From positions 310,001 to 374,000 of the forward strand of contig OU612067.1 of the NCBI GenBank assembly GCA_914767715.1: DNA of 64,000 bases. The letters are read 5' to 3'. This stretch comes from Membranipora membranacea. Taxonomy: Eukaryota; Bryozoa; Gymnolaemata; Cheilostomatida; Membraniporidae. Positions 1,359 to 63,913 of the stretch are shown here, one piece after another (position 1 is the first letter of the stretch; every line of letters starts with the position of its first letter). The position numbers and the translations under genes are program-made. The notes beneath the pieces were generated by a model. It was not told where the DNA came from and ran no database searches. It saw nothing but the letters and a program-made list of their open reading frames with translations.

Positions 1359-3502
1359 CTTTATTCTGTTTGACGATGTTCTCAATGATCTCTCGAGCTT
1401 TTGTCACCCTCTGCACAGCTTCAGGGCAGAGCTAAAAACACAAATACGCAACTTTTGTTGATAAAAGTGTAAATATGGCTTTATTTTTTGTATCTTTTTA
1501 TATGAGATGGTCTTACATACAAAAAAGCTGGTCATCTCTCAAAATAATGTTTGACTATCTCCCTAAAACTTGATGTCATATTGCATAGCCATAATCTTGG
1601 CCATTAAATCTCGATAAGTTGAATGAAGATATGCAGTTCATCAAACTACAGTTGACAGGAATATAGCTGGTTTGCCATGGAGGAAGCCAAAGAGCTGTTT
1701 CAGATCAGTCATGTAGAAATCTAAACCTCCTGATTACACTTAATCAAAACCATAAGTGAACCAGTACCGAGGGTCGGTTAAAGATTCACCACAAGTAAAT
1801 GGAGGACTGGTGGTGTACATATTAATGATGCTGAGTAAGCTCACTTACTCTGATCTTATAGTTTCCCTTTCCGAGCTCCATCACATCCGTTGTACTGAGA
1901 CTGAATCCATCTAGAGTCATAAACTCATTAGTCGCCCCCGGCTTCCCCCATATACTGAGAGGCGCTCAGGTCAAGGTCGCAATACTGATATGGTAGAAGT
2001 AAACTTCAGCAACATCACATGAGACCAGCTGCTTAGTAATACTACAGCAGTAGTTTTGCAGTAGATCACATCAAATCTGAATCGGTGCTTCGAATAATTC
2101 AGTGGAAAGTCCAAAATGATTGGTGATACCGTGATATGATGTCAGATTCCTGTTAGACATGTTAATTTCGCATTTTTAGATGAAATAACTATTCCTATTA
2201 ATTATTCTTAATTAAAATATTTGCTTTGTTTAATCGGGGAATGTACTTTTCCAAGTCCTATAAATTCTTGTTTTTACCACCTAAAAAATCTTCTCGGGTA
2301 GAGGTTTATGGAAGCGCCATGTTCCTTCAATGCGTCATGCATGTCATCATTTCTAATAACTATAATGTTTCGCACTTGCCATCAACAGATTCAAGCTTCG
2401 GATGAGCTCATTGATTATTAATGTTTAGTTACAGAATCAAAAAGAGGAAGAAGACCAAAACTCGACCACACATCACATCTTTGTCTACATCACATCACAT
2501 CACGTATACACCGTAGGGTCTACATCATGTTCACAACGATATAGTACACAACTTGTGGGTCTCAAGGATACAGTTTATCCATAGCATTGTAAGAGAAATA
2601 TGTCTCCTCCTCATTATCAAGCACTACAATAAATTATTAAATTAAATCAAATTATTTCAGGTAATACATCCAAGAAACGATTTCACTGAGAGCCTTACTG
2701 GGGTGTGAGACTATTAGATGAGGTTATAAGTAATATGTTCAAGGAGTCAGAGACTCCTTGATCTTTTTGAGATATTATCTAACACAGATTTTAATATTTC
2801 ACAGTGACCAACTTGTGCCGCAGAGATTTTGAGAGCCTAACGCTAACAGTACAGCTATACCCTCAGACAGAGCATCATTACAAATTCTTATGCAACAAAA
2901 TGTTTCCATAAATTTATGACAAAACAAGCGATCAAAAACTGGGTATATATTAGCCATAGAGTTATTATATAGAGTATATAATAACTCTATGATATTAGCC
3001 TATACTAGATGTTGTTCAGGTCAAGGAGTTGTTCAGATAACTTTGGGTCCACTTAGACTGGTGTTAGAGTGCCTCTATATAGACCAAGTGGAAGCGGCTC
3101 AGAGTAGTTTGGATTAAGTTACAATAAACTGGCGTAGGGAAATATATGTGGGCAGGTAATACCATACAGATTTCTTATCGCCTTCTTACAGGACTAACAA
3201 CCCAACAAAGCTAGCTAGCTTCTGTAGTCCTCTGCTAAGGCCTTTCCCATATCGCCCACTAACTTACCTATGGTAACAAAATCATTATCATCCAGTACAT
3301 CTTTGACCAAGTCATCCTGATCAATGATAGCTCCTCCATTGGTCCGCCGAATCTCTTTGATTTTGTCTTTTAGAGGCTCCGCTTGAGATTTCAGTTTTGC
3401 ATATCTCTTCAGCGTGGATTCACCGAGGCTTTTCACTGAATCGTTCCCCTTTCCACAAGGCACTGCGAGAATCTCCCCCTTCAGATGGACGGATAACTTC
3501 AT
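1359..3502 (-). CDS. HAL: Histidine ammonia-lyase, N-terminal part (5' partial gene)
   Basis: HAL deaminates L-histidine to urocanate in the cytosol, the first step of histidine breakdown. Four minus-strand exons are visible: 3502-3268, 2374-2281, 1954-1849 and 1431-1359 (phases 1, 2, 0, 1, all consistent), giving about 169 residues. Residues 1-80 form the ubiquitin-like Par3/HAL N-terminal domain, with the HAL-type L-A-V-P-C start, an L-G...R-Y helix and G-G-A-I-I-D-Q-D-D. The next parts read L-Y-P-R-R-F, T-L-D-G...L-S-T-T-D-V-M-E-L-G-K-G-N-Y-K-I-R and P-E-A-V-Q-R-V-T-K-A-R-E-I-I-E, matching the segment that precedes the catalytic core in animal HAL. The MIO-forming Ala-Ser-Gly is not in the window. 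I chose the ATG at 3502-3500 because M-K-L-S-V-H-L-K-G aligns with the human start. The frame stays open upstream to 3697, so a longer start is possible. PAR3 shares the first domain but not the later exons. The donor of exon 2 (GTGGTA) is weak. Confidence 0.9.
2955..2991. repeat. Perfect short inverted repeat (hairpin)
   Basis: The 15-base arm CATAGAGTTATTATA (2955-2969) is followed by a 7-base loop and its exact reverse complement (2977-2991). It lies in HAL intron 1. TATTAGCC occurs on both sides. Confidence 0.7.
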
Positions 3503-4159
3503 GTCGATAGAATCACAAACACTCACTAACTGTGAGCTGGAGCAGGTAGAGCAGGAGTTGAACTTTCTATGTTTCCCTGCAGAGCGGTGATTGTTTGTCT
3601 CTCTCAGTACTGTATTGTTGTAGTAGTTATTCATGAGCGCTGAAGCTGGGCTAATCTGCAGTTGGCCAATCAGAGTACAAGATTTGAACACACCCACAGA
3701 AAATTACAAAAGAATTTTGTTTGTCATTTAATTTTACCAAAATAATACAACATTTGTTTTGAGCTTTGAACTGAAATGTGAATACCAGTCATAACAAGGC
3801 TGAGCCATGATTTCAAACTCTGGCCAAGTTCCAAACAAATCATAACGGATACATACTTCGACAAGAAATAAGTAGACCAGCTCAAAAAGTGCACAACATA
3901 CTATGCTTATTGAAAAAACAAATTCAGCAGGAAGGAGGGACAACTGCATTGTGTTACAAAACAGACAATGCCTATAAAATAAAAACAGTTACATTGTATG
4001 GTGTATTTGTTCAGCACAAATATCAATAAATATGATTTTGCATACCAGCCCTTTGATTGGCTGCTGCCTTGAGGCTCTAATGCTGGCCAGGTTGTCGGGG
4101 TTGAGTGGGGGACAGCCTGGGTAAATCTGTTGTGACCTCGTCAAGGTCACGGCACAGTG

Positions 4160-5578: not shown

Positions 5579-5732
5579 TCTGATGACACAGTCATATTTA
5601 TGGGTGTTTAGATTTTAATGTGAGTTGGTGATGACAGTCATATTTATGGGTGTTTAGATTTTAATGTGAGTTGGTGATGACAGTCATATTTATGGGTGTT
5701 TAGATTTTAATGCGAGTTGGTGATGACAGTCA
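5579..5732. repeat. Minisatellite, 46 bp unit, about 3.3 copies
   Basis: The unit begins TGATGACAGTCATATTTATG and repeats almost exactly. It lies 57 bases or more beyond the hexosaminidase stop codon, probably inside its 3' UTR or just past it. Confidence 0.8.
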
Positions 5733-5788
5733 TATATGTGTCTGTCTGGAGTATAGAATAGTTATCTTCTCTCTCCTCCTGCTCCTCC

Positions 5789-8700
5789 TTAGAACATCGG
5801 AGGCTCAACCTGCTTCTCATACTTACAGTATGAAGGATCGATAGGATTGGCATCTAGTCCTCTCCTAAAACAAATCAAATATCTGTCAAACAAAATGTGA
5901 AAACTTCAAAAAGTTGCCAAACACGGTGTTACAAAATGTGAAATAAATTTAACTACTTGGCAAACTGAATATTGCAAAATGTGAAAATTCTTTTGAGATG
6001 ATGTCTGATTGATTGCATTGCTATCACTGACTATTTATTGTTGCTGGTGCGCATACTCTGTGGATGGAAAGATTTATATGAATATGAGTTATATAAATGC
6101 TCATGTGCCATAGAGAACCATCTCTGTATCGGGACATATCTCAGCCCCCCGGATTGATACTTTTCAGGGACACCCTGTACAAACTGTTCATTGTCCGGGT
6201 ATGTTTGTATTATCTGATCTTATGGCTGTTTAACCATCCCATTGGTAAGTGACAAGATGGAGGATATGAATGCGCTATAAGTGACGCAATCAAACTCTTA
6301 AAAAGAGCTCAGCATGCCGCCCTACACTGTAGACGCATTTTTAGCCACTAGAATCTGTACAATGTCTTTGATCGAATAGTAACAGCCAGCTCTAACTAGT
6401 TGCAGCTGGAGCTGAAACCTGCAATGTGCTCTAATCCTGGATAATTCCCAAAGCAGTCAGTGTAATATCTACACAAATATGTATTAATGTTCAGCAAGAT
6501 ACCAACGTCTTATTCTTCAGAGTACCACCAGAGTAATTATATATCTGGCCTCCCATTATCTGAATATAACATCATCAGAACCCAAATAACTACAGATCAG
6601 CGATTAATCACAATGTCAGGCTTAACTCCTGCTATCATGTAAGTTATATAAACACATTAGCTTGTTGTACTCATATATCTTTAATTCATAGCCTCTGAAG
6701 TGGTTGAGTTGTACCAGATCAAAGCCTACATATATTTAGTTCTTATCATATGAATCACTAAGTCTCAGAAGCACTAAGGCTCTGAGAGCAAAGCCTTGTA
6801 GGCGGATGCCTGTTACTCTTTTACTTGCTATCACAGTGATTTACATGATAGAGTTTATATCTGATGATAAAGGAAGTTTCTCCTTTCACCAGTACTGGTT
6901 ACTCACTTGAGCATTCTGCATCTATGTACCTCTAGCCTGCTTTTCATACTGACTAGATCAGTAGCTGTTGCGGGGCTCCAGAGCCGCTCCGCTACTACAG
7001 CAGCACGAGGCCAGGTTCTGGACATGAGATTAGTGGTATCGACCCACTCACCCCACATACAGCCCTCACCACCCATCACTAGAGCCTTCTGAGTATCAGT
7101 ACCATTAAAGTTCTACGAAGTAAAGGTTGAACATGTTATGGTATGTCTACATCCTGTAAGCTTGAAGTCTGTAAGCTTCTGATTTATATCCAAATCATGA
7201 TCAGTCTCAGGAGGTTTGTATAACCTTGGATGCTCAGGCACTTAGGATAGCTTGGTGCACCCGAGTATGCTTGACAATCAAATTTAGTATCTTTCAAAGT
7301 GTATAAACGGTATTGTATAACTGAGTTGGACTTAGTTCGCCATTGGAGAGATCTTCGAATTGTTACTCTAAGACCTTCTCAGATTTTTAGGTTTTTTAGG
7401 TTAAACATACTTTTCAACTATGATACAAAATTATAATTATTATAGTAAATCATGTGGTAAAAGTTCAGTTGAGAGTTGTCTGCTTTTTAATGAGGACCAG
7501 ACAACTCAGATATTGTTTAGAATCAGCTATATCATACCAAAGGATCACATTGGTAATATTTATGCCAATCTTCTCCATATGACAACATATTCAAGTACCA
7601 ACAAGCTGAGGTTATGGCCTTATATCCACTCTTAGTGACAAATGTCATCTCTTCGGCAGCTTTACGGACACCGTAATTCTTCCAAACATTTACCACAGTA
7701 TCAGCAGCCAGCTAAAATCAACAAATCATTCGCCAATCTTCCCCCAACAATCTACCATCTGCTCGGCCGCAGTGGTACCCCACTAGATCAGTCAGCCATT
7801 GAGCGCCTCATTCTCTACTGCGATTGGTTCATTGATCAGTCTTTTGATTGGTTGATCTTTGCTACCCCTGATACAGTTAGCAGAAAATTTCATGAGCAAA
7901 TAGACCAATCTCAAAAGTCACCAAGTTTGGATATAAAGCCCTAGTTAGCCGCGGCATAAATCATAGCGGAGATTTCGTACCAACGGATCACACTGATAAT
8001 ACTTGTGCCAGTCCTCGCCGTATGTGATCTCATTAAGGTACCAACAGGCTGAGGTTATACCACGGTAACCTTTCTGAGTGACATAAGCCATTTCCTCTCC
8101 TGGTGTTCTCTTAGCGTACCATATCCATACATGTACGACTGTATCCTTAGCTAGCTAAAACCAACCAATCAACTCACAAGATCAGTGATGGACTACACTG
8201 CTGACCTTATACAAGGTCGTCAGCATCACAGCTGGCCCTCCCTAAATGTTGATTGGTTGATTAAAGCATGCATCTGAGTACACTGGCACTGCGCAATGGT
8301 ACACTCGAAGAACCTGAGGCGTTAGCAAACAGAGGAAAACTAAGGAGCAAGGCTGTGTCACTCAGTAAGGCTAGCTTAAATTATGGGAGAAATTAAAAAT
8401 CTAAATAATCTAACTTCCATATTCTTTAGTACCTGCGGGTCGCACTGATAATATTTGTGCCAGTCTTCTCCGTAAGAAAGAATATTCAAATACCAGCAGG
8501 CTGAAGTTATAGCCTTATAACCTTTCTGGGTGACATATTGCATTTCTTGATCTGCTGTGCGACCCCCAAACCATTTCCAAACATTTACAACTGTATCTGC
8601 TGCAAGCTAAAACCAACCAATCAACATAGGAATATTTAGCGCAGGTGGCCAATCAGATTGACTAATCACAGCAGCGGTCAACCTGTGAGTGACCTAGCTA

Positions 8701-11700
8701 TGATTGACCAATCCCTGTTACCAGTCAATAGGGAGGTGGGTGGAGCTGTGAGCTGACTGACCTGTGGGTCTACTTGATAATAACTATGCCAGTTTTCCCC
8801 GTAGGCGACTCGATTAAGATACCAGTGAGCAGAGAGGATAGCCTGGTATCCCATCCCGGTAATCTTAGACATCTCTTTTTGAGGATCAGGGCTTCTTTTC
8901 CACACATTGACTACTGTAGTCTTAGCAAGCTGTAAGCAACACAACGCCACCAAGATATACATGCAGTAGACATAGAGTATGCACCAGCGAAAGAAATTGT
9001 TGTGACAAGCTACAAGTTGAAATACTCCTTCAATAATCTGTACTAGTTCACGTAGTGCTGCGGCTGTACCACATTAGTAGAATATTACACAAACAGTCTC
9101 ATCATGTCCTGAAAGTGTCTTTATCTATGTGTCAAACTTATGTCTAAATGATGGATATGAGTGCAAGATGAAACACTTGACTTCTTGACAAACTCTTCAA
9201 GGTGTGCCAGCTGCTGGAAATAAACCAGGCCTAATTACTGGGTTGTCTGAATGCTACAGTGTTTGATTTTGCGTCCAAATTCACTATTTTTGCACAAATA
9301 CAGGCATTCTAACCTAATGGGCCAACTCGACTGGTGGTCACAGAAACGGGAGGATGGACAGACCACAGAGACAGAGTGTCTATCTACACTGCCACTACTG
9401 AAGGGTCATAGAGCGCAGAACATGCAGAAGTAAGTTAAGTAGTCGATGTGTGGAAAAGAAGATATATAAATACATCTATTACATCAAGTATGAGAGTCTG
9501 CTGGCTCGGAACCCCCAGACTACCTGACATATACTTCAACAGTGTCATGTAGGATAAAGAACTCATGCCACAAAATATGGATATATGGAACAAAACATGG
9601 ATATATGGAATACAATATTGATGATTTAGGTTTTGGCATCAACAGTATGAAAGTTTTCACGATTAGGATTAGATCATTTTAGTTCCAATACAAGGATCCC
9701 AATGTTTGTAACTTGATACGGACCAGACATAATCAGTATACATACACAGAGTACAGGGGGTTTAAGTCTACTGGCTATACCTTGACTCCGTTATCTAGAG
9801 GTTCCTGCCATACAATATAACTATTACCGATCTTACTGACTAGACTCGTCAGTCTGGTCATGTAGTAAGATTCCAGTCCTGCGTAATCTCCAGCCTTAAT
9901 ACCAGCCTTAGCCATAAACGCATTGACATTAGGATTAGATTTCCTGTGAAAACAGCCAATATGTCATACAATAGGAATCTAGAATGGATCATAGGTATTA
10001 AAAACTTTTTTTTCTTGTTGAGACTGAGAGTAGAAAGTAATATGACATAAGCCTAATGGGCTATATAATACGCTGTAGGGAAAAAAACCTGCTGAAGTCT
10101 GATTGAAGTTTTCCCCCCAAAGTTGCTGATTAGACTAAGCATATCTGTCTAGGCAGACATAAGTCCTAAGCTTGGCCCAAGTTTAATAGAGGACTGCTAA
10201 TAAAAATCCCAAACAAGAACAGAAATATTAAACTAGCTGGGAACTTAGTTGTATGGAGAAGAAGCAAAAGAATTAGATTGTAAGATCATAGTAATGGAAG
10301 AGACTAGGTCACGGTGAAAATATTAATTACTGTAATATGGTTTTGTTATATAATGTGAGGTATACCTTATACACCTTTTACTAACTAGAACTGATAAGAT
10401 CAAGGACCACCAAATAGACGCAAAATTGCTCGGCTCAGTGGTCAGATCATCGGTCAGAGTGATGCTAGATCATGCTTGATCTATTTGCCTGAATTCAAGG
10501 GGGAGCAACTCCAAAAGCAAATGTTCAATAGTAGGGATTAGCAGTGTAATACGCAGATATAAAGGTCTGGTCGTGGTAAAGTGCATAGTGACACTCATAG
10601 ACTATGATGAATACAATGAGTGGAATGGAGACAACGCATAGAAACTAAGAGGCACTCAGAGTTAAATTCATGATGAAATATAGCAGCGCCTATGGAAGAT
10701 AATAAGCAAAGCGGAAGCATAATACATGCGCAGGAAAATTAGAGTAGGATAGAGATTTGCTGGGTCCTTGTGAAGGCTCTTTGATATTGTAATTGGAATA
10801 GAATATTCCAAACAGAACTGCAAAACACAGAGGGTCCCATCTCAAACAAGGGTGGGTGGCAGTAGGAGTGGGCAGTGTTAGAAGGATTGAGAACTGAAGG
10901 GGACTGAGTACCCACAATGAAATAGACATAGATTCTGTGCAAAAAACTGTGTGAAATATCTCTTTCTGACCAGATATATATCATATTATCAATCATTAAT
11001 CATAGTTTTACAGGTCTATAGCTCTGCAAAATTTGTATGTTTTATTTGATATAGAGTATTGAAAAATTTACTCACAAGGAAAGAAGTCCACTGAGACCGG
11101 GGTTGGATAAGTGCAAGGGACTTGGGAAGGTAAATTTGCTACATCAACATTTTTAGTGGTTTTTGAGGCTCAATATGATGTGTAATTATTGTAACAACAG
11201 CCTCCTTCATTTCATTGGTCTGTGGATTATAATCGGCTAAGTTTTATATTTTTATCTTTGGCTGTGACAGTTAGGTTTCGGGTGTCTTTGGCTACGAATG
11301 CAAGGACAGGGCTGTAGCTTTGTATATACAAATTAGAGCCAGATAAAATGTCCGATTTTGATCCATCCAAATTGTAATACTGATAGTCATATGAATAATA
11401 AATAACACAATGCATCAATTGAAGAGTAAAAGTTTTATTTTTTGTGTGCATATATCTTTCTCAGTTTGAAGGGCGATCAAAAGTTGTTCTTTTAAGCTGT
11501 CATCTGATAATTAGTTGGATTGGGTTACCTTATCCCCCCATTATCTCTTGCCCCTTTGCCCCACTCGTCCAAAACAAATAAATATGGCATTGTCGAGCTT
11601 CGGTTAATTGTCGCTAGTTGCCAGACATGGCTTTGGATGCTCCTTCAATATATAATAACATAACATTTGTCATCAAGACGTTTGTGTTAATGCACAAAAA

Positions 11701-14700
11701 TCATTGCCGGCACTCCCATCCCAATACCTCCACTACATTTTGCCTAAGACTTCTTCATAACCAAAGTTGACCACCAAGCATCATAAACAGGCATAGATAT
11801 TTTGGAAAATAGGCAGATATGGTCATTTTATTTTAAGAACGCAGATCAGCCCTTTGAAATTAAAATTAGGTGATAACAAGCAGTCACAATTATGTCAATA
11901 AGGTAGAATGTAAGATTTTTTCATCTCACTGAGATTGCTTGCCTGTTTTGCTCACTGAGAATTTGAAGTCAAAGTAATACAGCATTGCAGCAACAAGCTA
12001 AGATAGTTTATTGGAGTTATGATGTATTGGCTCAAAAAGTTGATATTTCAACAAAAGCATTGCAAGAAGCCTATCTATTACTCATACATGACAAGTTGGT
12101 AGACCCAGAAATCAGGAGGTCTCTGCGGACGAACTTCCGACCCGGAGTACCACTCTGCGTGTCCAGCAGTGAAGGTGTAATTTTACCTGATTTTACAAAT
12201 TATATTGTTGCACTTCATACGAACGAGGAGAGATAGTATGTTAAAGACTTAGTTTGAGGCTGCTCTTTTGTATCACATCTTATTCTCCATATTTTATTCT
12301 ATCATGTGAGCGATTTTCAGCTTTAGAATCCAAATATTGAGGAAGTTATGGCCTCTCAAACTTCCAGGGTGATTGCCTTCAATCGGCATTGGGAATAAGC
12401 GGATGTTTCCCCTGGGGTATGTCACAACCATAGACATGTGACATAGACATTATGAGTTAGTAGTTAATACACTAATAATCACAATAATTGATGATCATAG
12501 TAATGGAAGAGACTAGGTCACGGTGAAAATATTAATTACTGTAATATGGTTTTGTTATATAATGTGAGGTATACCTTATACACCTTTTACTAACTAGAAC
12601 TGATAAGATCAAGGACCACCAAATAGACGCAAAATTGCTCGGCTCAGTGGTCAGATCATCGGTCAGAGTGATGCTAGATCATGCTTGATCTATTTGCCTG
12701 AATTCAAGGGGGAGCAACTCCAAAAGCAAATGTTCAATAGTAGGGATTAGCAGTGTAATACGCAGATATAAAGGTCTGGTCGTGGTAAAGTGCATAGTGA
12801 CACTCATAGACTATGATGAATACAATGAGTGGAATGGAGACAACGCATAGAAACTAAGAGGCACTCAGAGTTAAATTCATGATGAAATATAGCAGCGCCT
12901 ATGGAAGATAATAAGCAAAGCGGAAGCATAATACATGCGCAGGAAAATTAGAGTAGGATAGAGATTTGCTGGGTCCTTGTGAAGGCTCTTTGAATTGAGA
13001 ATTTGAAGTCAAAGTAATACAGCATTGCAGCAACAAGCTAAGATAGTTTATTGGAGTTATGATGTATTGGCTCAAAAAGTTGATATTTCAACAAAAGCAT
13101 TGCAAGAAGCCTATCTATTACTCATACATGACAAGTTGGTAGACCCAGAAATCAGGAGGTCTCTGCGGACGAACTTCCGACCCGGAGTACCACTCTGCGT
13201 GTCCAGCAGTGAAGGTGTAATTTTACCTGATTTTACAAATTATATTGTTGCACTTCATACGAACGAGGAGAGATAGTATGTTAAAGACTTAGTTTGAGGC
13301 TGCTCTTTTGTATCACATCTTATTCTCCATATTTTATTCTATCATGTGAGCGATTTTCAGCTTTAGAATCCAAATATTGAGGAAGTTATGGCCTCTCAAA
13401 CTTCCAGGGTGATTGCCTTCAATCGGCATTGGGAATAAGCAGATGTTTCCCCTGGGGTATGTCACAACCATAGACATGTGACATAGACATTATGAGTTAG
13501 TAGTTAATACACTAATAATCACAATAATTGATGATCAAAATTCAGACCTGGGTGGGAATCGAACCCGGGTCCCTATATCTACAGGCAACGACGCCGCCCA
13601 GAGATCCACTATACTTTCACCTAAAATTGAGAATAATTGAGAAAATTGAGAATCCTGCCAGAGTGGACAACTCTACTATCTCAAAATTGAGAAAATATAT
13701 CCCTTCAATACATTGTCTCGCATTTTCTCAATTTTTTATTTTTCCTCGATTATCAATATTTCCATTAAAATATTTAGTTATAAATGATTCAAATATTATT
13801 TCAAGTTGATTTGTTATTGAAAACTACATAAATCCCTCACTATCCTCCAAATTACATTCCTGCTCAACTATTATGAACCAAACCGAGTGGTTTTGACAGG
13901 AGAATAGAGACTGAAAGTGTTCAAGCAAGCACTGGACAAATTCCTTATACTCTTTTTATGATGAAGCAAAATAAGCTTAGCTGTATGTTTTACTCATATG
14001 AGTGGGTTGAAGACTGGACAGGTACAGCATGTGTAAAAAACATCTGGCCTGATGAGAAGAACTCTGGTTAGTTTTGAACCAAAGAAAGATGATGATGTGA
14101 GTATTTTTTTACTACTAGATACTAGCTAGTAAGTAGTCTTACTCTTAGCAAGGAGTTTAAGGGCTGGATAGCTGCTTAGGTGGTAGCTTGTCTTGACAAG
14201 CTTTGTCAATCTTTGGCAAGCTTGTCAAGACAGGTTACTTAGGTGGGTAGTAGCTCAATTTTTATCTCCAATAATTGATTGATTGATTCCTTGCTGTTGG
14301 ACTGACTGAGTTACCTCATTTACTAGCCCTGTCTTTGGAACTGAGGGACAGTAAAGGATTAGGGCGAAGTGATGGCGACATATTGACTAGCGTAGTTTGC
14401 TCATTCTCATTGAAAGAGATCCTGATTCAGCGATCAGTTGAGTATTTACGTAGTCTTTCTCTTGCTCAAATCTCCATTGTATGATCTTGTAGATACACAA
14501 TCTATATTTCTGGATGTACTTTTTGGGACAAGGCTGCCAGCAGTTAAGTTGAAGACCCGAATGCTATTCAGAGGAAGACATGGTTCAGTGCAGAAATGAC
14601 TGATGGAGAAAAGAAAGTGTCCTCCGCTAAGCGTAAGTAGCCTAAGCCTAATCAGATGTATAATATGCATTACCAGCGTTTTTGTCAGTGGAATTGGTAA

Positions 14701-17700
14701 CAGTAGGCCCTATGTCTTGTGACATGTCTAGCAGGCATACATGGCCACAGATTGGCTTGAGATTATAACACCCTAACCCTAGTTGTTACAAGCCTCATCT
14801 AATACAGGTAATGGGTATGTCATCTTGCCGATCGTGAGACAATGACATAATCAATATTATATACAAATTATGGCTTATTGGCGACAAGTTGGATGCACGC
14901 AATTATTATTCTCTTCCATGCTCCAACTTTCTAATTAAGTCTTTTCCGCTAAAAGTGTGTTACAACGATACTCATGACATAGCAGTATTTGACCATTTCA
15001 ACCTCGTGTGTAAACGTGGCTTAATATTTTGGGCAGAGAGGTCATGGATTTATTTAGCGTTGTACAAACAAAAGGACAATATACTGAATAATCGGCTGGT
15101 GTGTGCTTTCCGTTTATATCTAGTTTCCTTGATGATGCAAAGAACGATGGGATCACTTAGGCAGTTTTCCACTAAGAACTCAACTACTTCTCCATTACCT
15201 GACCCGTGAACACACATCAACTCTTTGCAAATGGTACGTTGCTTTCTTAAAGCAAAGTAGCCCAATGTTTATTGCAGTGTTTGATTTGAGGAACTACATC
15301 ATACCTTAGATGAGTAGGAGAAGCTCGCCGTTCCGCACATCGGCTATTTGAATGAGCTAAATCTAATTCTCGCAAACATTTACACTTTACATTAAATATA
15401 CTCTTACTTCAATTAGCTAGAATTAAGTGCTAGCTAACATTAACTCATCTAGCTGAATTTATTTCAAACAAATATTTACTCCTCTAGCTTGATTTTTAGA
15501 CACTTTGAATAGTTTTCATTCTAACGTTGTACTGAGGTGACCGTCACATAGTATCAGCTGAATCAAATAATATGTGCTATTACAACGTAAAATGGCAAAG
15601 CTCACGCAAAAACAACCAAACCTGACAAGATCACATCTGATCAGACAAGAGATACTTTTGCCGATGTGATAAATTAGAAGAAATATCTTTTGTTTGATCA
15701 GATACTTTCACACTGCCCCTTTTGCATAATATTAACATTCTCCTCTTGCAGGTATAGTGGGAGTCTTGTTGACCAGATTCAGAATTTCACACTGTCACAT
15801 CTTATACGTCGACTGCACGCTGCCAACTCATCACCTGCTGCAAAGACACCTCAACAAATCTTGTCCACATTAGTACGGCCATACGAGCTGAGCTGCAGTC
15901 TCATCCAACTTTATATTAGCCTCAAGTTCTGCATCCAGCGTGCAATGAGGTATTGTGAGGCCGACATGATGTCAACATACATATTATATGAGTACCTACT
16001 AAGGATTTGCATATGAATGACTGCTGATCTGTACACAATCATAGCACTGTGCTTGATATTTCCTGTTGTATTTTTTTTTTACTTGACCCTCATGTTCTAG
16101 CAGCAACTTTTCAGGCTGAATAATAGTATTTGTTTTTTTGTTGAGGTCATCATTGAGGTGCTATAATTATAACGTTGAGAAATAATCTGTCTAAAATTTT
16201 ATCTTGTAAATTACAATATAACCAATCTTATAGGCTTTGTACCCGTGATGTTGATAAATATTTGGCAAAATAAAACTCTATACCGTTTCTGTAATATCGC
16301 TGATCAAGTTGCTGCATAGATAGACATTTCTATCTAACACAAAGGATTACTTCAGTTCATTTTATATGATGAACAAGCAGTGTTGCAGGCCATAGCTAAC
16401 CTTTATTGGCGACTATCAAATCATTAACGACCGGGTCAAATAATTCAATGCTGAGAATTTCTTTGCAAGCCATCAGAAGTCAGTTATTTAGATGACTCAT
16501 AAGACAATAAATCCTCATCTGCGAATTGACATGGCGTTTCTACTGCCCATTGTATACCTCCCCCTATGCATGTGTTAAGATAATACTGTATATCTATAAA
16601 AAACTATGAAATATCCCAGGAGTTGTCATGACACGTAAAATGAGAAGACAACTTATTCTCTTTCTTTCCTTTGCCCCTCCCCTTTTTTCTCTTTTCTCCT
16701 CCCCCTTTTCCCCACTCTCACCGAGAAGTATATCCCCGAGCCCGCCGCCATCACGCCACTTGGACCAACTAGGTTAGCTGGCTGTGACGTACCCTAGGGA
16801 TTGCCGGCTGATTTTTACTGCCGATAAATTGCAGTCACCTTGGAAGTTTGAGATGCCATAACTTCCTCAATATTTGGATTCTAAAGCTGAAAATCGCTCA
16901 CATGATAGAATAAAATATGGAGAATAAGATGTGATACAAAAGAGCAGCCTAAAACAAAGTCTTTAATAGGCAATTATATATAGGTATATGTACTGTGGGG
17001 GTAGGAAAACATAGTTTCTCTTGCAACTAGAAGCTTAAAAAGTCGTCTGGGTGAAGGAAGCTGAAAAAAGGGAGGAAAAAGGGAGATAGAGAGGAGGTGG
17101 AAAAACCCCTAAAAACTGGGAGGCTCCCTACCAAAAAGGGAGACTTGTCAGGTATGCTATTACTACGGTAGGCTACAATTTGTTTGAGAGTTTTAACAAA
17201 AGGTATGACTGCACTATAAGAGATCAGCCTTTGTTCCATATAAATTTCTATAGAATCATAATTGCCAAGGCACTAAGGCTCTAACAATTTGCTAGATGGA
17301 GGAAGAAAAGCTTTAATGTAGATTGAGGTTTGGAAACATAGAAATAGATGTCTGTGTCTATGTCTATGTAGATGTCTATGTTTGCCAAATAATGGCTCGA
17401 AAAAGCCAAATTTGTTGTGTTGGTAATTGGAAATATTCTATGTGATTGCATTCACTACGGGCTTTCACAGTACTCCCAAAGAGAAGGAAAGGTATGAATC
17501 TAGTCTTATTTGCAGTAATTAAAGCTGGATGGGCAAAACTGTAGGTGTTTATTGTGTGATCAAATTGGGTTCAGATTCCACCATTTCCAGCCTATAGCCG
17601 AAAGGCCCCCTTTAGTCTTGAGCCTTACATGACGTTACCTTATACCACCTCTACACTCATCGTGTATTCGGTGGAGATTACTTATTACAACTAAGAGTAT

Positions 17701-20700
17701 CCCTGACATACTAACCAGCAGTCGAAGCTGACCTCGTCACCTCCGAGGTGGATATACTGATCAGGGAATACTGAGTTTACTTCTGTGAATAGCCTCTCCA
17801 GGAAGGCATAAGTAGAGTTCTTAGTTGGGTCGATGGGTCCGTATGTACCATCAGGCTTACCATCCTTACCGTAACACTCTGTTAGAAGACCTGGCTGTCC
17901 GTATCCCCACGACAGCGTGTGTCCTGATAATCAAAATAATCATTATAGGGATCATAACATTGGATTATTTCTGTGGGATATGTACCCAGCTAAGCATGCC
18001 CGCCTTATTACCACCACGGACTGTCTCTAGATTAGTTTCTGTAGTTTATTATGATAATCAGGTTTGCCATCATCATTTAACATTGGATCATTGGTGCAAG
18101 GGTTCAGAGTGAATAGCTGAAGTTATACCATTACACCCAAGACAATTTGAGCCACAAGAGTTTTATATCATATCTAATAATATCACTTGTATGTCTGAGG
18201 TTTGAAATATTTATAACAATAAACAACCCACATTATCATTTTTATGCAAAAGTTACTACAGTTAGGGCTGGGGATAAGTAACAGCCATCATCATAAGAGA
18301 CTGTCTAATAAACACACCATCAACAGAGCAGTACTTATGTACTAAAATCCTCTCTGTTCAGTTATGAATAAAGATCAGGTCAATAATAAGAGTATCTCAT
18401 AGGCACTATACTTATATTCTGAAGAATATAAATATGCTGCAATGACTGCCTATAGATAGATTAAATCTGACGTACCTGGAGTATCAAATTCTACCACTAC
18501 TCTGATTCCTCTCTGTCTGGAGTATTCTATAACCTCAGCGATATCCTCATGACTATATGTGTGAGTGTAAGGCTCATACGCTCCCTTACGGCTTAGATCA
18601 GGGAACACTCTGCTTCTGTAGGGGAATGACTCCGAGTCTACTATGTGCCAGTGGAGAATGTTATACTTAGCCATAGATAGAGCAGACTGTAAAATAATAA
18701 CATTCAGCTTGTATATTTTGGACTCATTGATTCATATTTGAACTTATCAAAAGAGCCTCACGCCACAATAAATAATCACAAATTTCAGAGTGTGACAGAT
18801 TAGATAGAGATGCTACAATAAATTAATGTGGCACATTTTTATGTGCTACATACACTGACAACAATGCCTTGCTGGCGAATTTAATAAATACTTGTATCAT
18901 AATATCTGGCAATCAAATAATATGTAACTTAGGAACATATGGCATGGCAAAATCAAGGTTTTTTGGGTGAAGCTGAAGTATCTACATCAATAACTAATAG
19001 CAGACACACATGGGACCCATTCAAACTCCAGTTGTCAGTGAACGGCAATGAGATAAGCGCCAAGGAACTTTGGCAATTGCACATAGAAGACTTTGTCAAA
19101 CCATATGAACCACCCCTTACTCCTGAAGACATATTTACATATATATATATATATATATACAATGATAACATGAACATACCACAAACTGAAGGATGACATT
19201 CTTCTCCAAGAAATGTCTGGATGAGTCGATGAGAAATCCTCTATGTTGGAATCTGGGAGCGTCTTCGATCATCGTCTCGTTAACTAACCACTGTAAGTAG
19301 TAGGTAAGTAAGTAAGTAAGTAGTGATACATATCAGAGTGTGGGTATGTGCAGCCATCAGCTTCTCAAACCAACAAACTATCATTTGGAGCGGTTCTAAT
19401 GCAGTTATTCCTTGAACTCCGTTATTTAAAAATCCGTCTATAAAGTATCGATAATTCATACATAGGCCTCACGAGTTGTGATCAATCATCATAATTACAC
19501 ATAAACTAGATACCGATTTGAGATTTATTTTATTATGTTTTTAGACAATGATTAGTGGTACTAGAGATTATACTAGATAATGGCTCTCTTACCAGACCAT
19601 GGCTCTCATACATCGTCTCATATACAATCTGACTAAAGGTCTCCAGTCCCCTCAGAGCTCCCCATAGAGAATCAGAACTCAGCATGGCTTTACCAGATGA
19701 TATCTGCAGTTTATCTAACAATCATACAGAGAATCAGAACTCAGCATGGCTTTACCAGATGATATCTGCAGTTTATCTAACAATCATACAGAGAATCAGA
19801 ACTCAGCATGGCTTTACCTGATGATATCTGTAGTTTATCTAACAATCATACAGATAGATGGACTCTGTTAGTAAAGGTCCCTTCATCATATTTTGGACAT
19901 CAAAGTTGGCAGGATACTTAGAGCTATAATTAAGCTTTTAGTTAAGTTAAATTTGGGTGTTTACTATAAATATCTTGTAGTGTTCTCTATATTTTATGTT
20001 GGAAAAGTCCTTTCTCCCATTTGGTTATGCAAACGTTCCACGATGACAACAATTTTAGCCATGAATATTTTACAGGAGTGTCTGTAGCAAGTGGTAAACA
20101 TTAATCAGTCAATGCCTATACTACATTTGCGTACTATCAATGGCAAGTTATTTAGTACCTGGTAAATCAGAAAAAAACCACATTGGCTTTGCAACTGTCA
20201 TGGGTTATGCTAGGTGACTTCATCCAGTACCGGCAGTTTTACAATATAAGTATTGAGACCCAATTCTGAGCAGCATCGACAAGAGGCATTATCAGCAAAC
20301 TTATCAGACACTTAAGGGCAACACCCCCAAGCATGGGACCACAATGTCAAACAGATCGTACCATATGCAACATTAAAAAACCACAACAGTGATAAAACAG
20401 TATTTTATAACTATCGACACAATTTTACAATTTATGCAGGTTGGTCTCTGTGGATCGCTTGCTTGTAGACTTAGGTATGTGAAGCAGAAGACTAGCATAA
20501 CATCATCGCAGTATTAAATGGTTCAGACATGACTCATGTGACTCAATGTGCAGGAAATTGACCTCACATCAACATTTTTGCTTGCAGGAAATTGCTATAT
20601 GGAAAAAAATCACCAACAAGTTAGAAGAATGAATTAAGAATATTAATATTAGGCCCTACATAGTTCTGATCATTAGGACTGAGGATGTTTTATACAATGG

Positions 20701-21601
20701 AGCTATTATTCCCTATCGTTATACTCACAGTTCTCACTCATCCCCAGAGCCGGACGAGGTTTACCAGTACATGGGTTATGGACATAGACGTCTAAACCAT
20801 TAATCTCAGCAGGGTTAGCTTTATGTGTTCGCTTAGAGCTCTTGCTGTTAGCCTGTAAAGAAAAATGTCATAATTGACAGACATGTAATCTGTGACATTG
20901 CTCACTGATCCTTAAAGTGTTAAGAACAATTACCACCATAACAAATAAGTATGACAATACTTTTCGTCCGATTACCTTAGGCCCTACCTTGAGCTAAAAC
21001 ACTAGTGGCTTATGGCTTATTTCTCAGTACGTGGGCAGATTGCAGCCTGAAAAACTGGTGAGTAATCAGCACAAAATAATCAGACGAAAAACATTATCTG
21101 GAATGGAGGATAATATGGAAACCACCAGGTTCATACGCAAAATTAATATATATAATATGTATATATGCAGCATGTGAGCAATGTAAAGGCTCAGTAATAA
21201 TCACTGTACGGTGTGTCATCCACTGCGTACAAGGAGAAAGGTTCATGTGTTAACAACCCAGACTAGTAAACAGCACTCATATATGATATCATATTGTGAG
21301 ACAGCATACATACCTCATATGAGTTAGGAGTATCAAATATCATCTTGTAGTATCTGTCAAATGCAGCTTCCAAATCATCACATGTGTTACCAGTGGCATT
21401 GAAAACAAAACCATCACCCCTGACTTCAAACACAGTGCTGCTATGAGTCCATGTTCTGGGTAGAGGCAGAGGAAGGCCTGGCTGAATGTACCCAGTTGGA
21501 TCTGTTGGTGAAGGGAAATATCTCACTTTCCCTGCAATCTCCTGCTCATTAGCAGAAATCACAACAACTGCAAATGCAGCAAAGACAACTTTCAAATGCA
21601 T
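5789..21601 (-). CDS. HEX (HEXA/HEXB-like): Beta-N-acetylhexosaminidase (GH20, lysosomal HEXA/HEXB family), with a four-copy exon 8
   Basis: A lysosomal enzyme that removes terminal N-acetylhexosamine from glycans, glycosaminoglycans and glycolipids. Minus-strand exons: 1, 21601-21314; 2, 20852-20729; 3, 19714-19593; 4, 19290-19180; 5, 18686-18476; 6, 17923-17716; 7, 9943-9781; 8, one of four copies; 9, 7112-6907; 10, 5864-5789. Every junction has AG/GT and matching phase, giving 558 residues with 8a or 560 with 8b-8d (human HEXB: 556). Residues 1-17 are a signal peptide. GH20 N-terminal domain follows to about 180. Catalytic motifs: H-R-G (exon 4), H-W-H-I-V-D (exon 5), G-H-T-L-S-W-G and H-L-G-G-D-E (exon 6; Glu349 is the acid/base), I-V-W-Q-E (exon 7), W-Y-L-N (exon 8), C-M-W-G-E (exon 9) and H-R-C-R (exon 9 end). 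I rejected an earlier GT at 6929 because reading on to 6907 adds H-R-C-R and fits the phase. Exon 1 could start at an upstream in-frame ATG (21637), but the nearer one gives a better signal peptide. Confidence 0.95.
7538..7711 (-). CDS. HEX (HEXA/HEXB-like): Hexosaminidase exon 8d (W-Y-L-N-M)
   Basis: 58 codons, phase 0 at both ends, acceptor TTTTAG and donor GTATGA. Reads [10 protein letters not shown] and ends Y-Y-Q-C-D-P-L. The residue after W-Y-L-N is Met, a hydrophobic side chain as in human beta (Leu453). It is the copy nearest to exon 9 and has the shared cysteine pair. Confidence 0.85.
7845..7854 (-). promoter_or_regulatory. Candidate RNA-pairing element downstream of exon 8c
   Basis: In the pre-mRNA this reads CAACCAATCA, the exact complement of ten bases of the element just upstream of the 8b and 8c acceptors. 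It lies in the intron between 8c and 8d. Confidence 0.4.
7981..8154 (-). CDS. HEX (HEXA/HEXB-like): Hexosaminidase exon 8c (W-Y-L-N-E)
   Basis: 58 codons, phase 0 at both ends, acceptor TTTTAG and donor GTACGA. Reads [10 protein letters not shown] and ends Y-Y-Q-C-D-P-L. The residue after W-Y-L-N is Glu, so the charge is reversed relative to 8a. It shares the two extra cysteines with 8b and 8d. A second AG four bases inside the exon would shift the frame and is unlikely to be used. Confidence 0.85.
8162..8173 (-). promoter_or_regulatory. Candidate RNA-pairing element at the exon 8c acceptor
   Basis: In the pre-mRNA this reads GTTGATTGGTTG, ending seven bases before the 8c exon within the acceptor region. 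It is identical to 8614-8625 and complementary to 8248-8259 over all 12 bases. Confidence 0.45.
8248..8259 (-). promoter_or_regulatory. Candidate RNA-pairing element between exons 8b and 8c
   Basis: In the pre-mRNA this reads CAACCAATCAAC. It is the perfect complement of both acceptor-side elements (8614-8625 and 8162-8173). Pairing with the first would loop out exon 8b; pairing with the second would form a hairpin in front of 8c. Confidence 0.45.
8433..8606 (-). CDS. HEX (HEXA/HEXB-like): Hexosaminidase exon 8b (W-Y-L-N-I)
   Basis: 58 codons, phase 0 at both ends, acceptor TTTTAG and donor GTACTA. No stop or frameshift. It keeps V-N-V-W and W-Y-L-N and carries Ile at the position of alpha Arg424 / beta Leu453. 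It has Cys in S-A-C-W-Y-L-N and in Y-Y-Q-C-D-P. It is an alternative to the other exon 8 copies; use in mRNA is inferred from intact splice sites only. Confidence 0.85.
8614..8625 (-). promoter_or_regulatory. Candidate RNA-pairing element at the exon 8b acceptor
   Basis: In the pre-mRNA this reads GTTGATTGGTTG, seven bases before exon 8b, at the usual place of the branch point and pyrimidine tract. It is identical to the element in front of 8c. Confidence 0.45.
8762..8929 (-). CDS. HEX (HEXA/HEXB-like): Hexosaminidase exon 8a (alpha-like, W-Y-L-N-R)
   Basis: 56 codons, phase 0 at both ends, acceptor TTACAG and donor GTCAGT. It begins [10 protein letters not shown] and ends H-S-Y-Y-Q-V-D-P-Q. 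Trp in V-N-V-W, and Tyr and Asn in W-Y-L-N, match human alpha Trp392, Tyr421 and Asn423. The residue after W-Y-L-N is Arg, as in human alpha Arg424, which contacts acidic substrate groups. It is the most diverged copy: two codons shorter, and without the two cysteines shared by 8b-8d. Confidence 0.92.
10284..10784. repeat. Duplicated block X, first copy
   Basis: 501 bp that recur at 12493-12993 with no difference that I could see. In this copy the block is followed by about 1.17 kb (10785-11955) that the second copy lacks. Confidence 0.9.
11967..12236 (+). other. Unidentified exon-like open frame in block Y
   Basis: An open frame with protein-like composition ends at TAG 12234-12236 and has no ATG. 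CATTGCAG at about 11983-11990 could be an acceptor. The reading contains [13 protein letters not shown] and [10 protein letters not shown]. An identical frame is in the second copy (to 13276). I do not recognise a family. It may be the last exon and 3' UTR of a gene captured by a repeat, or chance. Confidence 0.25.
12237..12425. repeat. Dispersed repeat, copy 1
   Basis: It contains AGAATCCAAATATTGAGGAA and ends near GGTATGTCACA. Related copies are at 13277-13465 (same orientation) and at about 16783-16975 (inverted), all in hexosaminidase intron 6. Confidence 0.75.
12493..12993. repeat. Duplicated block X, second copy
   Basis: Apparently identical to 10284-10784. It starts at the shared GATCA that also ends block Y and is joined directly to a second copy of Y, so the unit was duplicated in tandem with the 1.17-kb middle missing. 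Confidence 0.9.
12996..13537. repeat. Duplicated block Y, second copy
   Basis: Nearly identical to 11956-12497, including the open frame (13007-13276) and the dispersed repeat (13277-13465). Confidence 0.9.
13541..13617 (-). mobile_element. tRNA-like sequence, probably a SINE head
   Basis: On the minus strand it reads an A-box-like AGTGGATCTCTGGGCGGC and, 27 bases on, the B-box GGTTCGATTCC. The T stem around the B box has mismatches (CCGGG against CCCAC), so a working tRNA gene is unlikely. It starts right where the tandem duplication ends. Confidence 0.5.
14189..14232. repeat. Foldback with 15-base perfect arms
   Basis: TGTCTTGACAAGCTT (14189-14203) and its exact complement (14218-14232) are separated by 14 bases. 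The direct repeat CTTAGGTGG lies on both sides (about 14176 and 14238), which would fit a 9-bp target duplication of a tiny insertion. Confidence 0.65.
16783..16975. repeat. Dispersed repeat, inverted copy
   Basis: The reverse complement matches 12237-12425 through TCAGCTTTAGAATCCAAATA and neighbouring bases, with scattered differences, mainly at the end proximal to 16783. Confidence 0.75.
19135..19161. repeat. (AT)n microsatellite in hexosaminidase intron 4
   Basis: A run of alternating A and T shortly after the exon 4 donor in transcript orientation. Confidence 0.8.
19665..19852. repeat. 62-bp tandem triplication covering the exon 3 acceptor
   Basis: Three copies with a 62-base period each carry the same acceptor (TTGTTAG on the minus strand) plus the first part of hexosaminidase exon 3. 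Only the copy nearest the exon body (start 19714) keeps the reading frame. Starting at 19776 or 19838 runs into an in-frame TAG 20 codons later, because 62 is two bases more than a multiple of three and the TAG is that of the next acceptor itself. Confidence 0.85.
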
Positions 21602-61961: not shown

Positions 61962-62066
61962 ACTGAATTAGCTGTTGACTGGTTAATTGTTTTATTTCAC
62001 TTTCAGCGTGAACATCTTTGTGTTCTCTAACTTCTGCTAGAAAACTCCCAATTGTACAGCATCATC

Positions 62067-63913
62067 ATGATGGCTACAAAGAGATCCGCCTCACATGCCT
62101 TCAGCATAGACTCGCTTATGAGTAAAGACAGAGAAACCGTATCTCCACCAAAGTCTGCGAGCGTCACACCACCAACATCACCGACACACAACCCATTCGC
62201 ACATCTCATGAACATGAAAGCTCTGTATGAGAACCAGTGTTTCCCAGGACTTGAGCATATGGCAGGACTCGGACTAAATCACCCAATATTTGCTGGAGCC
62301 TTACCCACCTCTCTACCCGGACACATGCCTACACTACCACACATCAACCCTCTACTGATGGCTGGAGCCCAGAGAGCCGATCCACTATTCAATCCATGGT
62401 TACAGCTCGCTAGACACCCAACCCTTCTCTCTCACCGATTCGGTAAGTTACCCTATCAGACAACCATTGGAAAATTAGAAATACAGCTCAATCCGAGTTC
62501 ATAGCGGTCATATTGGGGGCATAAAACTTTATCATTGTCAGACATTAGATTTTGTCTGCAGTATGTCAGACACAAATTGGTGTCTACGATTGCAAGGCCT
62601 TCCGCCAATTATAATGTCACTAAAACTAAATTGACTAAAATTATCGAAATTCTTATGTTAAAAATTTCAGGGAAGTTGGGTTGGCACTTGGATGTAATAG
62701 TTTATAACAGAATCTAATAACTGTTTTTGGGCTATTACAAAGTTAATTATAGTAATAATGTCCTCGACTTAATCGATTTTGATGCCATGATATCATGTTA
62801 ATAAAGTCGTGAAATAAGCCCTAATCACATTTAATAGAGCTAAGATTAGCTTGTTCAAATTGTCTAGGCCATTGTAAAATTGTTCATAATGAAATAGTTT
62901 AGCTCAGGTTTATTGGCCTGGCCTTTCTAAGATTAGAGAGAAAATCGTGACTATATTATGGGATTGTTTCAGTTTACAACACCTCGATAACTTTCCATCC
63001 ATTAAATTATAAGCAGGTGAAATTTTGTGCCAAACAAACGAGGTGTTAAAGTTAGAACTTAGCCAATGCCTGGATTAGATGAATGGTGAAGCTGTTAATG
63101 CCACGGCTCATTGCCACCTTCTGCTAATAATGACTCTAAATTAATATAATCTTATATTTGAGGTGTAAAAATCACCGGATCAACTTTAGAATTGAAGCTT
63201 AAGGCCAAAAAATAAGCTTCTGGGCAGTCCTCATTATAGTAAAATTAATTTCACTGCATTCCTTAACTTTTGAGGAGTTTCCATTTATCACTTGATCCAA
63301 TTTATATTATTTATATATTTATTTGGAATGTTGTTTTGTGTTTTCAGGAGGAGATAATCACGCTAGTTTGCTGATGCAGCCATTCAGAAAACCAAAGAGA
63401 ATCAGAACAGCTTTCTCACCTTCCCAACTTCTAAAGCTGGAACAATCATTCGAGAAGAATCATTACGTCGTCGGTCAGGAGAGGAAAGATTTAGCTTCTA
63501 ATCTCGGTCTAACTGAAACACAGGTAAGAATCAAACACGAGATAGTCTGAATTAATTTGCTTCTTAAAACGGTTTGAAAGTTTGAATGGACCTGAACTTC
63601 TATAAGGGAAAATGAATAATTCTTAAATCTTAATCCAACCGATTATCCTTAATTCTACTAAAACTGCCAATCATAGTTTACTGGCACTTCAATATCATAT
63701 CAATTTTTTTAACATATAATATTCCCTGTCTGTTTCTTTCTTCAGGTAAAAGTTTGGTTCCAGAACCGAAGAACAAAACACAAGAGAACGAAGGACGGTA
63801 GCGAGGATGGTATGGATGGTCACGGACACGATGAGAGCGATATCGAGGACGATCTCGAGATCTGTGATGATGAGCCGACCTCTCCTAAGAGACAGTGTCT
63901 GCCAAACTACTAG
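62067..63913 (+). CDS. EMX: EMX-class homeobox transcription factor, complete, three exons
   Basis: A nuclear DNA-binding regulator; relatives (fly ems, vertebrate EMX1/2) pattern the head and forebrain. Exons 62067-62442, 63348-63523 and 63746-63913 give 239 residues with consistent phases. Residues 12-18 (F-S-I-D-S-L-M) are an eh1-like Groucho-binding motif in the EMX position. Residues about 101-125 hold the EMX pre-homeodomain block, including P-W-L-Q and the S-H-R-F just before the first intron. The homeodomain is residues 140-199, with EMX-diagnostic [24 protein letters not shown] and V-W-F-Q-N-R-R-T-K; an intron falls between its residues 45 and 46. The C-terminus is acidic (D-E-S-D-I-E-D-D). 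The start could be either of two adjacent ATGs; I took the first. Human EMX proteins are 252-290 residues, so this one is slightly short. Confidence 0.97.
62443..63347 (+). other. EMX intron 1
   Basis: Nothing recognised apart from short open frames. It is AT-rich, without repeats that I could identify. Confidence 0.5.

Follow-up and report, generated by a model that had tools for sequence, protein, structure and literature searches.

Can a single gene for a lysosomal hydrolase supply several versions of its substrate pocket through the choice of one exon? This question is raised by a beta-hexosaminidase gene of the bryozoan Membranipora membranacea, located in 64,000 nucleotides (nt) of contig OU612067.1 (GCA_914767715.1, positions 310,001 to 374,000). 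«The window» means this whole stretch, and coordinates are counted from its first letter. The gene is a complete GH20 beta-hexosaminidase gene on the minus strand (21601-5789, 15.8 kb), in which exon 8 is present as four tandem homologous copies. As judged from its sequence, it probably encodes a working lysosomal-type beta-hexosaminidase into which one of the four copies is spliced at a time.

The exons were found by tblastn with a human bait, their splice sites were placed by eye and the exons were then joined. Exons 1-7, one of the four copies of exon 8, and exons 9 and 10 give an unbroken frame from the ATG at 21601 to the stop codon at 5789. All copies lie on the minus strand: 8a (8762..8929) has 168 nt and 56 amino acids, while 8b (8433..8606), 8c (7981..8154) and 8d (7538..7711) have 174 nt and 58 amino acids each. 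The first-pass annotation had described such an array, and its borders are exact to the base: each copy is preceded by AG and followed by GT, contains no stop codon and is in phase 0 at both ends. It is also correct that any single copy completes the protein, i.e., the frame is open over 558 (8a form) or 560 amino acids (8b-8d forms). V-x-V-W and W-Y-L-N occur in all four copies, and the next residue is, as had been reported, Arg in 8a (WYLNR), Ile in 8b (WYLNI), Glu in 8c (WYLNE) and Met in 8d (WYLNM). Exon 8a has a short stretch after VxVW and is of the Watersipora type. Tandem arrangement, homology, like length (168/174 nt) and common phase 0 are the marks of a mutually exclusive cluster. 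A fifth copy was not found by tblastn in the window, the remaining matches being weak (best E 0.13). It must be added that the frame is still open with zero copies or with all four copies included; therefore the frame alone imposes no exclusion. The donors of 8c and 8d agree with 5 of 9 consensus positions, those of the other internal exons (8a and 8b included) with 6-8 of 9.

All forms contain PF14845 and a full-length PF00728, i.e., they belong to the HEXA/HEXB type of GH20. Aligned to the human hexosaminidase alpha chain (2gjx_A), the 8a form reaches E 2e-157. PF00728 scores 297.7, 295.0 and 290.4 bits for the 8a, 8b and 8c forms (without the signal region). The 8d form, taken as the database protein P0001, scores 296.4 bits for PF00728 and 70.5 bits for PF14845. 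Without any copy of exon 8 the PF00728 score drops to 259 bits and the match is split into two stretches; a form with both 8b and 8c reaches 295 bits, thus this score is blind to the difference between one and two copies. The catalytic Asp-Glu pair (HLGGDE, exon 6) and the W and Y-x-N pocket residues are kept in every form.

The copies share 56-81% of their amino acids. The proportions of synonymous (pS) and nonsynonymous (pN) differences were counted according to Nei-Gojobori, pairwise and not branch-wise, with the two-codon gap of 8a positioned by hand. Between 8a and 8b-8d, pS is 0.81-0.83 and pN 0.28-0.31; among 8b-8d, pS is 0.72-0.90 and pN 0.12-0.22, the pair 8b and 8d having a pN of 0.12 for a pS of 0.90. 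A lack of purifying selection on 8b-8d had been named beforehand as a result that would speak against the proposed alternative use of the copies, and pN is far below pS in all six pairs. These values point to purifying selection on all four copies, none of which looks like a decaying duplicate, because in each of the six pairs the protein sequence is held although the synonymous sites are at or close to saturation.

The best database match of the gene product, P0001, is a 558-amino-acid protein from a 1892-nt contig (cluster of 11 members). It equals the 8d form of the window except at its start, and it reads 7-8d-9 without 8a-8c. P0001 comes from spliced RNA, because a contig of 1892 nt is too short for a gene of 15.8 kb. 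In this transcript exon 8d is used alone. Mutually exclusive splicing, as proposed in the first-pass annotation, is thus borne out as single-copy use for 8d; for 8a, 8b and 8c we infer use in Membranipora membranacea. The second-best match, «isoform X2» of Watersipora subatra (69% identity), contains one exon of the 8a type (WYLNR, 56 amino acids). The four isoform proteins are 96-98% alike, so that other members of the P0001 cluster could contain other copies. A search with exon 8b only gave 8 matches among 10 candidates, the named ones besides P0001 being two corals and a crab. It is highly likely that at least two of the copies are used one at a time.

What could keep all but one copy out? 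Exact matches of at least 11 nt among the three inner introns are limited to two elements. The acceptor element, GTTGATTGGTTGGTTTTAG, forms the final 19 nt upstream of both 8b and 8c, with no difference between the two. The docking element, ATCAACCAATCAA (13 nt), has one copy downstream of 8b (D1) and another downstream of 8c (D2). The identity of both elements argues for function, because synonymous sites are near saturation. On the minus strand, the acceptor arms Ab (8607..8627) and Ac (8155..8173) end at the 3' splice sites of 8b and 8c, respectively. The docking arm D1 (8246..8262, AATCAACCAATCAACAT) lies in the intron 8b-8c and D2 (7844..7859, AAGATCAACCAATCAA) in the intron 8c-8d. D1 and D2 are each complementary to both Ab and Ac, which is what defines a docking/selector arrangement: Ab forms 17 base pairs (bp) with D1 and 16 with D2, Ac forms 15 with D1 and 16 with D2. 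G-U pairs are included in these counts. The four are the top-scoring ungapped helices of at least 9 bp in the five introns of the array. Their predicted duplex energies extend from -32.0 (Ab-D1) to -24.2 kcal/mol (Ab-D2). The acceptor arm of 8d, Ad (7712..7730, minus strand), has 15 of 19 nt in common with Ab and Ac and pairs more weakly (-18.6 kcal/mol with D2, -16.7 with D1).

These energies were compared with those obtained when the real acceptors were kept fixed and the introns were dinucleotide-shuffled 400 times (20 acceptor-intron pairs). An equally good duplex was found in 0/400 shuffles for Ab with the D1 intron, 1/400 for Ab with the D2 intron, 1/400 for Ac with the D1 intron and 3/400 for Ac with the D2 intron. 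The lowest values for the other 16 pairs are 11/400 (8d acceptor, intron 8c-8d), 13/400 (8c acceptor, intron 7-8a) and 15/400 (8a acceptor, intron 8a-8b). Among the 144 acceptor and intron combinations of the gene (with only 500 nt at either end taken from introns above 1 kb), the four helices occupy ranks 1, 3 and joint 5. Exact matches of the docking 13-mer in the window are D1 and D2 only. That the complementary elements stem from a dispersed repeat is not supported: even when up to 3 mismatches are allowed, the window holds no other copy of the acceptor element, the third match being D1 read backwards. Rfam gives 0 matches for the window.

These helices lie over the polypyrimidine tract directly before the AG, and a paired acceptor would thereby be hidden. 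There would be three acceptors (8b, 8c and, weakly, 8d) for two docking arms, each of which can hide one acceptor only. With D1 on 8c and D2 on 8d, 8b would be free; with D1 on 8b and D2 on 8d, 8c would be free; with D1 on 8b and D2 on 8c, 8d would be free. During transcription such a system could work as a relay, i.e., the use of an acceptor would leave free the arm that could otherwise have hidden it, and this arm would hide the next acceptor. In constrained folds of 1.8 kb, Ab-D2 plus Ac-D1 (8d free, a state that does not pair neighbours) has -553.1 kcal/mol, Ac-D1 plus Ad-D2 (8b free) -552.8, Ab-D1 plus Ad-D2 (8c free) -545.1 and Ab-D1 plus Ac-D2 (8d free) -536.9. The partition function puts most weight on Ac-D1 and Ad-D2. 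Taken together, the intron sequences slightly favour RNA pairing as what governs the choice among 8b-8d. An inclusion of 8a in the relay, its acceptor pairing with the beginning of the intron 8a-8b, was considered and set aside, since a duplex of -23.0 kcal/mol that is equalled in 15/400 shuffles is too weak to claim.

Several observations weigh against this reading. Transcript support is seen for 8d alone, and when shorter relatives were searched for, the 120 matches listed of 355 included no fragment from Membranipora membranacea (best identity 61%). Single helices are only moderately unusual: when introns are shuffled freely, a best helix score of at least 38, the value of the best helix in the array, arises in 2/300 sets with all introns and in 2/1000 with the inner ones, and a score of at least 34 in 28/300 and 14/1000 sets, respectively. 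Ac also pairs fairly well with the intron 7-8a (as well in 13/400 shuffles), and the 8a acceptor with the intron 8a-8b ranks 2 of 144 (-23.0 kcal/mol, 15/400). With up to 2 mismatches allowed, the docking 13-mer matches the window at 17 places against an expectation of 4.15, and the majority of these places are outside the array. The pairing comes from one species and the arms are nearly invariant, thus there is no covariation. The acceptor of 8d pairs weakly, and 8a, which has no such arm, stands outside the relay, so that the relay gives no account of its exclusion. Finally, the 8c-free fold lies 8 kcal/mol and the Ab-D1 plus Ac-D2 fold 16 kcal/mol above the best one; folds of 1.8 kb are unreliable, and no more is read from them than an indication that competition between the states is possible.

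Does the exchanged segment matter for the enzyme? Each copy supplies the equivalents of human alpha Trp392, Tyr421 and Asn423, the first two of which we take to have active-site roles, and the equivalent of Arg424 differs among the copies. In human alpha, Asn423-Arg424 decide the handling of 6-sulfate and sialic acid, and beta has Asp452-Leu453 at this place (PMC3587417). The first-pass annotation had given these residues as they are in print. Its proposal that the gene yields an alpha-like form and beta-like or new specificities is too simple in its alpha/beta part: 8a has the Arg of alpha, but no copy equals human alpha or beta. The pair Asn-Arg is found in 8a only (8b has Asn-Ile, 8c Asn-Glu, 8d Asn-Met), and the Asp-Leu pair of beta in none, Asn being kept in all four. 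Moreover, human alpha has two residues more than 8a in the stretch behind VxVW, while 8b-8d have the alpha length but lack the Arg.

The pair at positions 423-424 was read in 127 aligned rows, taken from the matches nearest to the window protein. It is Asn-Tyr in 49 and Asp-Tyr in 34 rows (i.e., Tyr in 83 of 127) and Asn-Arg in 11, which include human alpha, 8a and Watersipora. The commonest state among the nearest relatives is therefore neither that of alpha nor that of beta, and all four window copies deviate from the common Tyr. An AlphaFold2 model of P0001 (mean predicted local distance difference test 88.6) was taken only for the borders of strands and helices. In this model exon 8 comprises a strand (VVNV), the Trp, a helix (422-434), a strand (438-441) and the WYLN segment. 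Among 8b-8d, 12 of the 13 columns after the VxVW strand and after WYLN are variable, versus 9 of 45 elsewhere, the 13 pocket columns having been picked by eye after inspection. The variation is located at the loop and the first half of the helix behind the first strand, and at the three residues behind WYLN. Up to four variants of the pocket could thus come from this single gene, as could mixed dimers, provided that the subunits combine freely. From these positions it seems fairly likely that the copies differ in their substrates.

The identity inside and outside the exon-8 segment was also compared among proteins from the homologue searches. Isoforms X1 and X2 of Fundulus heteroclitus HEXB (P0061/P0074) are identical outside the exon and 58% identical inside it (WYLNR vs. 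WYLDY). The earlier statement that vertebrates use two genes is thus incomplete, since these two isoforms of one HEXB differ in the exon-8 segment only. Isoform X4 of the Pacific oyster (P0033, Crassostrea gigas) and isoform X2 (P0111, Magallana gigas), whose two names presumably denote the same species, have 99% identity outside and 46% inside, with WYLSD and WYLDL as exon motifs. At least 10 fish models contain both copies in a row, in some cases incompletely (P0015, P0017, P0023, P0030, P0037, P0054, P0055, P0056, P0068, P0075); these are likely joins made by gene prediction from mutually exclusive exons. In the literature, hexb is among the differentially spliced genes of Acanthochromis polyacanthus, the type of the hexb event lying outside the available part (PMC8933327), and a survey of GH20 describes vertebrate Hex1/Hex2 genes as having universally 14 exons (PMC2492878).

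A tree of 47 hand-picked exon sequences groups 8a with Watersipora (98; ultrafast bootstrap 92 in an earlier tree), 8b-8d together (99) and all five exons together (98). The two oyster X2-type exons group (100), the fish copies with Asp-Tyr join human HEXB (91), and fish and oyster exons stand apart from the window copies; the oyster exon types as a single clade receive no support of at least 70 in this tree. In approximately unbiased (AU) tests, the window copies as mutual closest kin are not rejected (p 0.124 and 0.439), nor is 8a outside all others (p 0.333). The array is likely, as judged from these exon sequences, to be older than the Watersipora split. A single origin of all Asn-Arg exons, amphioxus included, is rejected (p-AU 0.0013); the union of 8a, Watersipora, human alpha and the fish Asn-Arg copies only is not (p 0.073). 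The fish Asn-Arg copies with human HEXB are rejected (0.0158), with HEXA not rejected (0.385), and the fish copies as mutual closest kin are not rejected (p 0.0758). The exon duplications in bryozoan, oyster and fish look independent.

Four other explanations have to be weighed against this reading. Mutually exclusive exons could be chosen by protein regulators, the acceptor element being a splicing-factor site (e.g., UUGG-rich) and D1/D2 leftovers of duplication. A protein would equally keep the 19-nt identity before 8b and 8c, and the pairing is seen without covariation; but why the docking element, the only other exact intron match of at least 11 nt, complements the acceptor element is then left unexplained, as are the 0-3/400 shuffle results, and we hold this explanation to be unlikely. 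A use of 8d only, perhaps with 8a, while 8b and 8c are silent or decaying, agrees with the single visible transcript, which contains 8d. However, pN is well below pS in all pairs, and the values for 8b and 8d need constraint on both; frames and splice sites are intact, and the donor of 8d is no stronger than that of 8c (5/9 each). Such silence is improbable. A longer protein with copies routinely included together is very improbable. The frame is open with any number of copies, the two-copy form equals the one-copy form on PF00728 and the fish models mentioned above have both copies consecutively, yet P0001 and Watersipora X2 contain one copy each and the Fundulus copies are given as separate isoforms. 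Moreover, in the model the segment spans two strands of the catalytic domain and the helix between them, and a protein with the segment twice should lose its fold.

A further explanation accepts the mutually exclusive exons and gives them another purpose, i.e., dimer assembly, activator binding, stability or pH range instead of substrate choice. The most variable stretch after VxVW includes the position of the IPV398 loop of human alpha, which is flagged for quaternary structure (PMC3587417). On the other hand, the equivalent of Arg424 differs in every copy, and according to the same paper this Arg of human alpha pairs with sulfate or sialic acid and the IPV loop is dispensable for activator binding. 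Such a purpose is conceivable, though we doubt it. The reading retained is that of one gene whose exon-8 copies are spliced in singly and probably change the pocket.

A wider proposal can be made tentatively, and we consider it rather doubtful: at least three tandem duplications of this exon may have occurred (in bryozoans, in oysters and in fish), making specificity a splicing choice; in the bryozoan a relay that masks acceptors would use one arm fewer than acceptors, one exon thereby remaining uncovered; and vertebrate HEXA/HEXB may descend from such an alternative pair, later divided between gene copies. If pocket-swapping exons in a housekeeping hydrolase are true, enzyme specificity would become a matter of splicing. 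Should fish, oysters and bryozoans have arrived at this separately with one and the same exon, they would offer comparable natural one-gene counterparts to the alpha/beta division that underlies Tay-Sachs and Sandhoff disease. In zebrafish, according to a review, the loss of hexb removes 99% of hexosaminidase activity despite intact hexa (PMC10002607), and an exon swap in fish hexb, if true, would bear on this result. Three acceptors and two docking arms would be a compact and testable design for keeping one exon out of several. Mutually exclusive exons are already known; what is new is an exon array for swapping the pocket of a lysosomal hydrolase, with docking arms that overlap acceptors, and with counterparts in fish and oyster. 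In the literature on hexosaminidase/HEXB splicing and exon duplication (titles and abstract openings among the matches listed, subscription papers being mostly outside), no paper was found on alternative exons at this hexosaminidase position.

The remaining exons, all on the minus strand, are defined by frame, splice sites and P0001. Exon 1 (21314..21601) carries the ATG, the signal peptide and the start of the N-terminal GH20b domain, and matches P0001 except for the start codon. It is followed by exon 2 (20729..20852), exon 3 (19593..19714), exon 4 (19180..19290), exon 5 (18476..18686) and exon 6 (17716..17923), the latter with the HLGGDE pair and also placed by the alignment to human alpha chain 2gjx. 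Exon 7 (9781..9943), with its phase-0 end, and exon 9 (6907..7112) are the constitutive neighbours of the array, and exon 10 (5789..5864) contains the stop codon. At 19666-19854 a 62-nt unit stands in tandem (3.0 copies, 98% alike) and triplicates the acceptor and the first part of exon 3, which gives three possible acceptors 62 nt apart, 62 being no multiple of 3. Intron 6-7 (9944-17715) contains direct repeats of 300 nt and 100% identity (11956-12255/12996-13295 and 10284-10583/12493-12792) and a related inverted segment of 160 nt (16807-16966, 91%); these are probably recent copies of mobile elements. A 46-nt tandem repeat (5588-5735, 3.2 copies, 99% alike) lies directly downstream of the stop codon.

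Elsewhere in the window, an open reading frame at 3215-3703 (minus strand) has the N-terminal domain of Par3/HAL (PF12053, E 3.2e-12). Another one at 62031-62504 (plus strand) has no Pfam match at E 0.01; by eye, we take it to be similar to the N-terminal region of an EMX-like homeobox protein. Among the homologues, beetle and lung-fluke entries (P0003, P0004, P0005, P0006, P0007) have 739-969 amino acids; by eye, P0003, P0004, P0006 and P0007 seem to contain two hexosaminidase units, whole or partial, and would be tandem fusions or joined gene models.

How does the array compare with known systems? Human HEXA and HEXB have the GH20 domains in common with it, and in them the equivalent segment and position 424 decide the charge preference (PMC3587417). 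In human these alternatives reside in two genes (PMC3587417), whereas here one gene holds four versions of the segment, none of which is that of alpha or beta. In teleost HEXB X1/X2 (Fundulus) the equivalent exon is swapped and the rest is identical, with two copies versus four here, and the tree places them apart. In the Pacific oyster isoforms (X4/X2) the equivalent exon is swapped as well, and WYLSD/WYLDL do not group with the window copies.

As to splicing, insect Dscam1, 14-3-3zeta, MRP1 and srp likewise combine competing complementary intron elements with a tandem exon array (PMC6071210). The duplication of an exon together with its stem arms would create competing structures (PMC6071210), an idea which the arrangement of the exon-8 array fits. 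In the Dscam1 type, one docker outside the cluster (or one per end in the bidirectional model) faces several selectors, and pairing activates the exon (PMC6071210). Here, by contrast, two dockers lie inside the array and the helix arm overlaps the 3' splice site, so that pairing should hide the exon. In the 3' variable regions of the Drosophila PGRP-LC type, competing pairings mask a splice site (PMC9013439), as the pairings proposed here would; there the exons are terminal and the 5' splice site is masked (PMC9013439), unlike in the window array.

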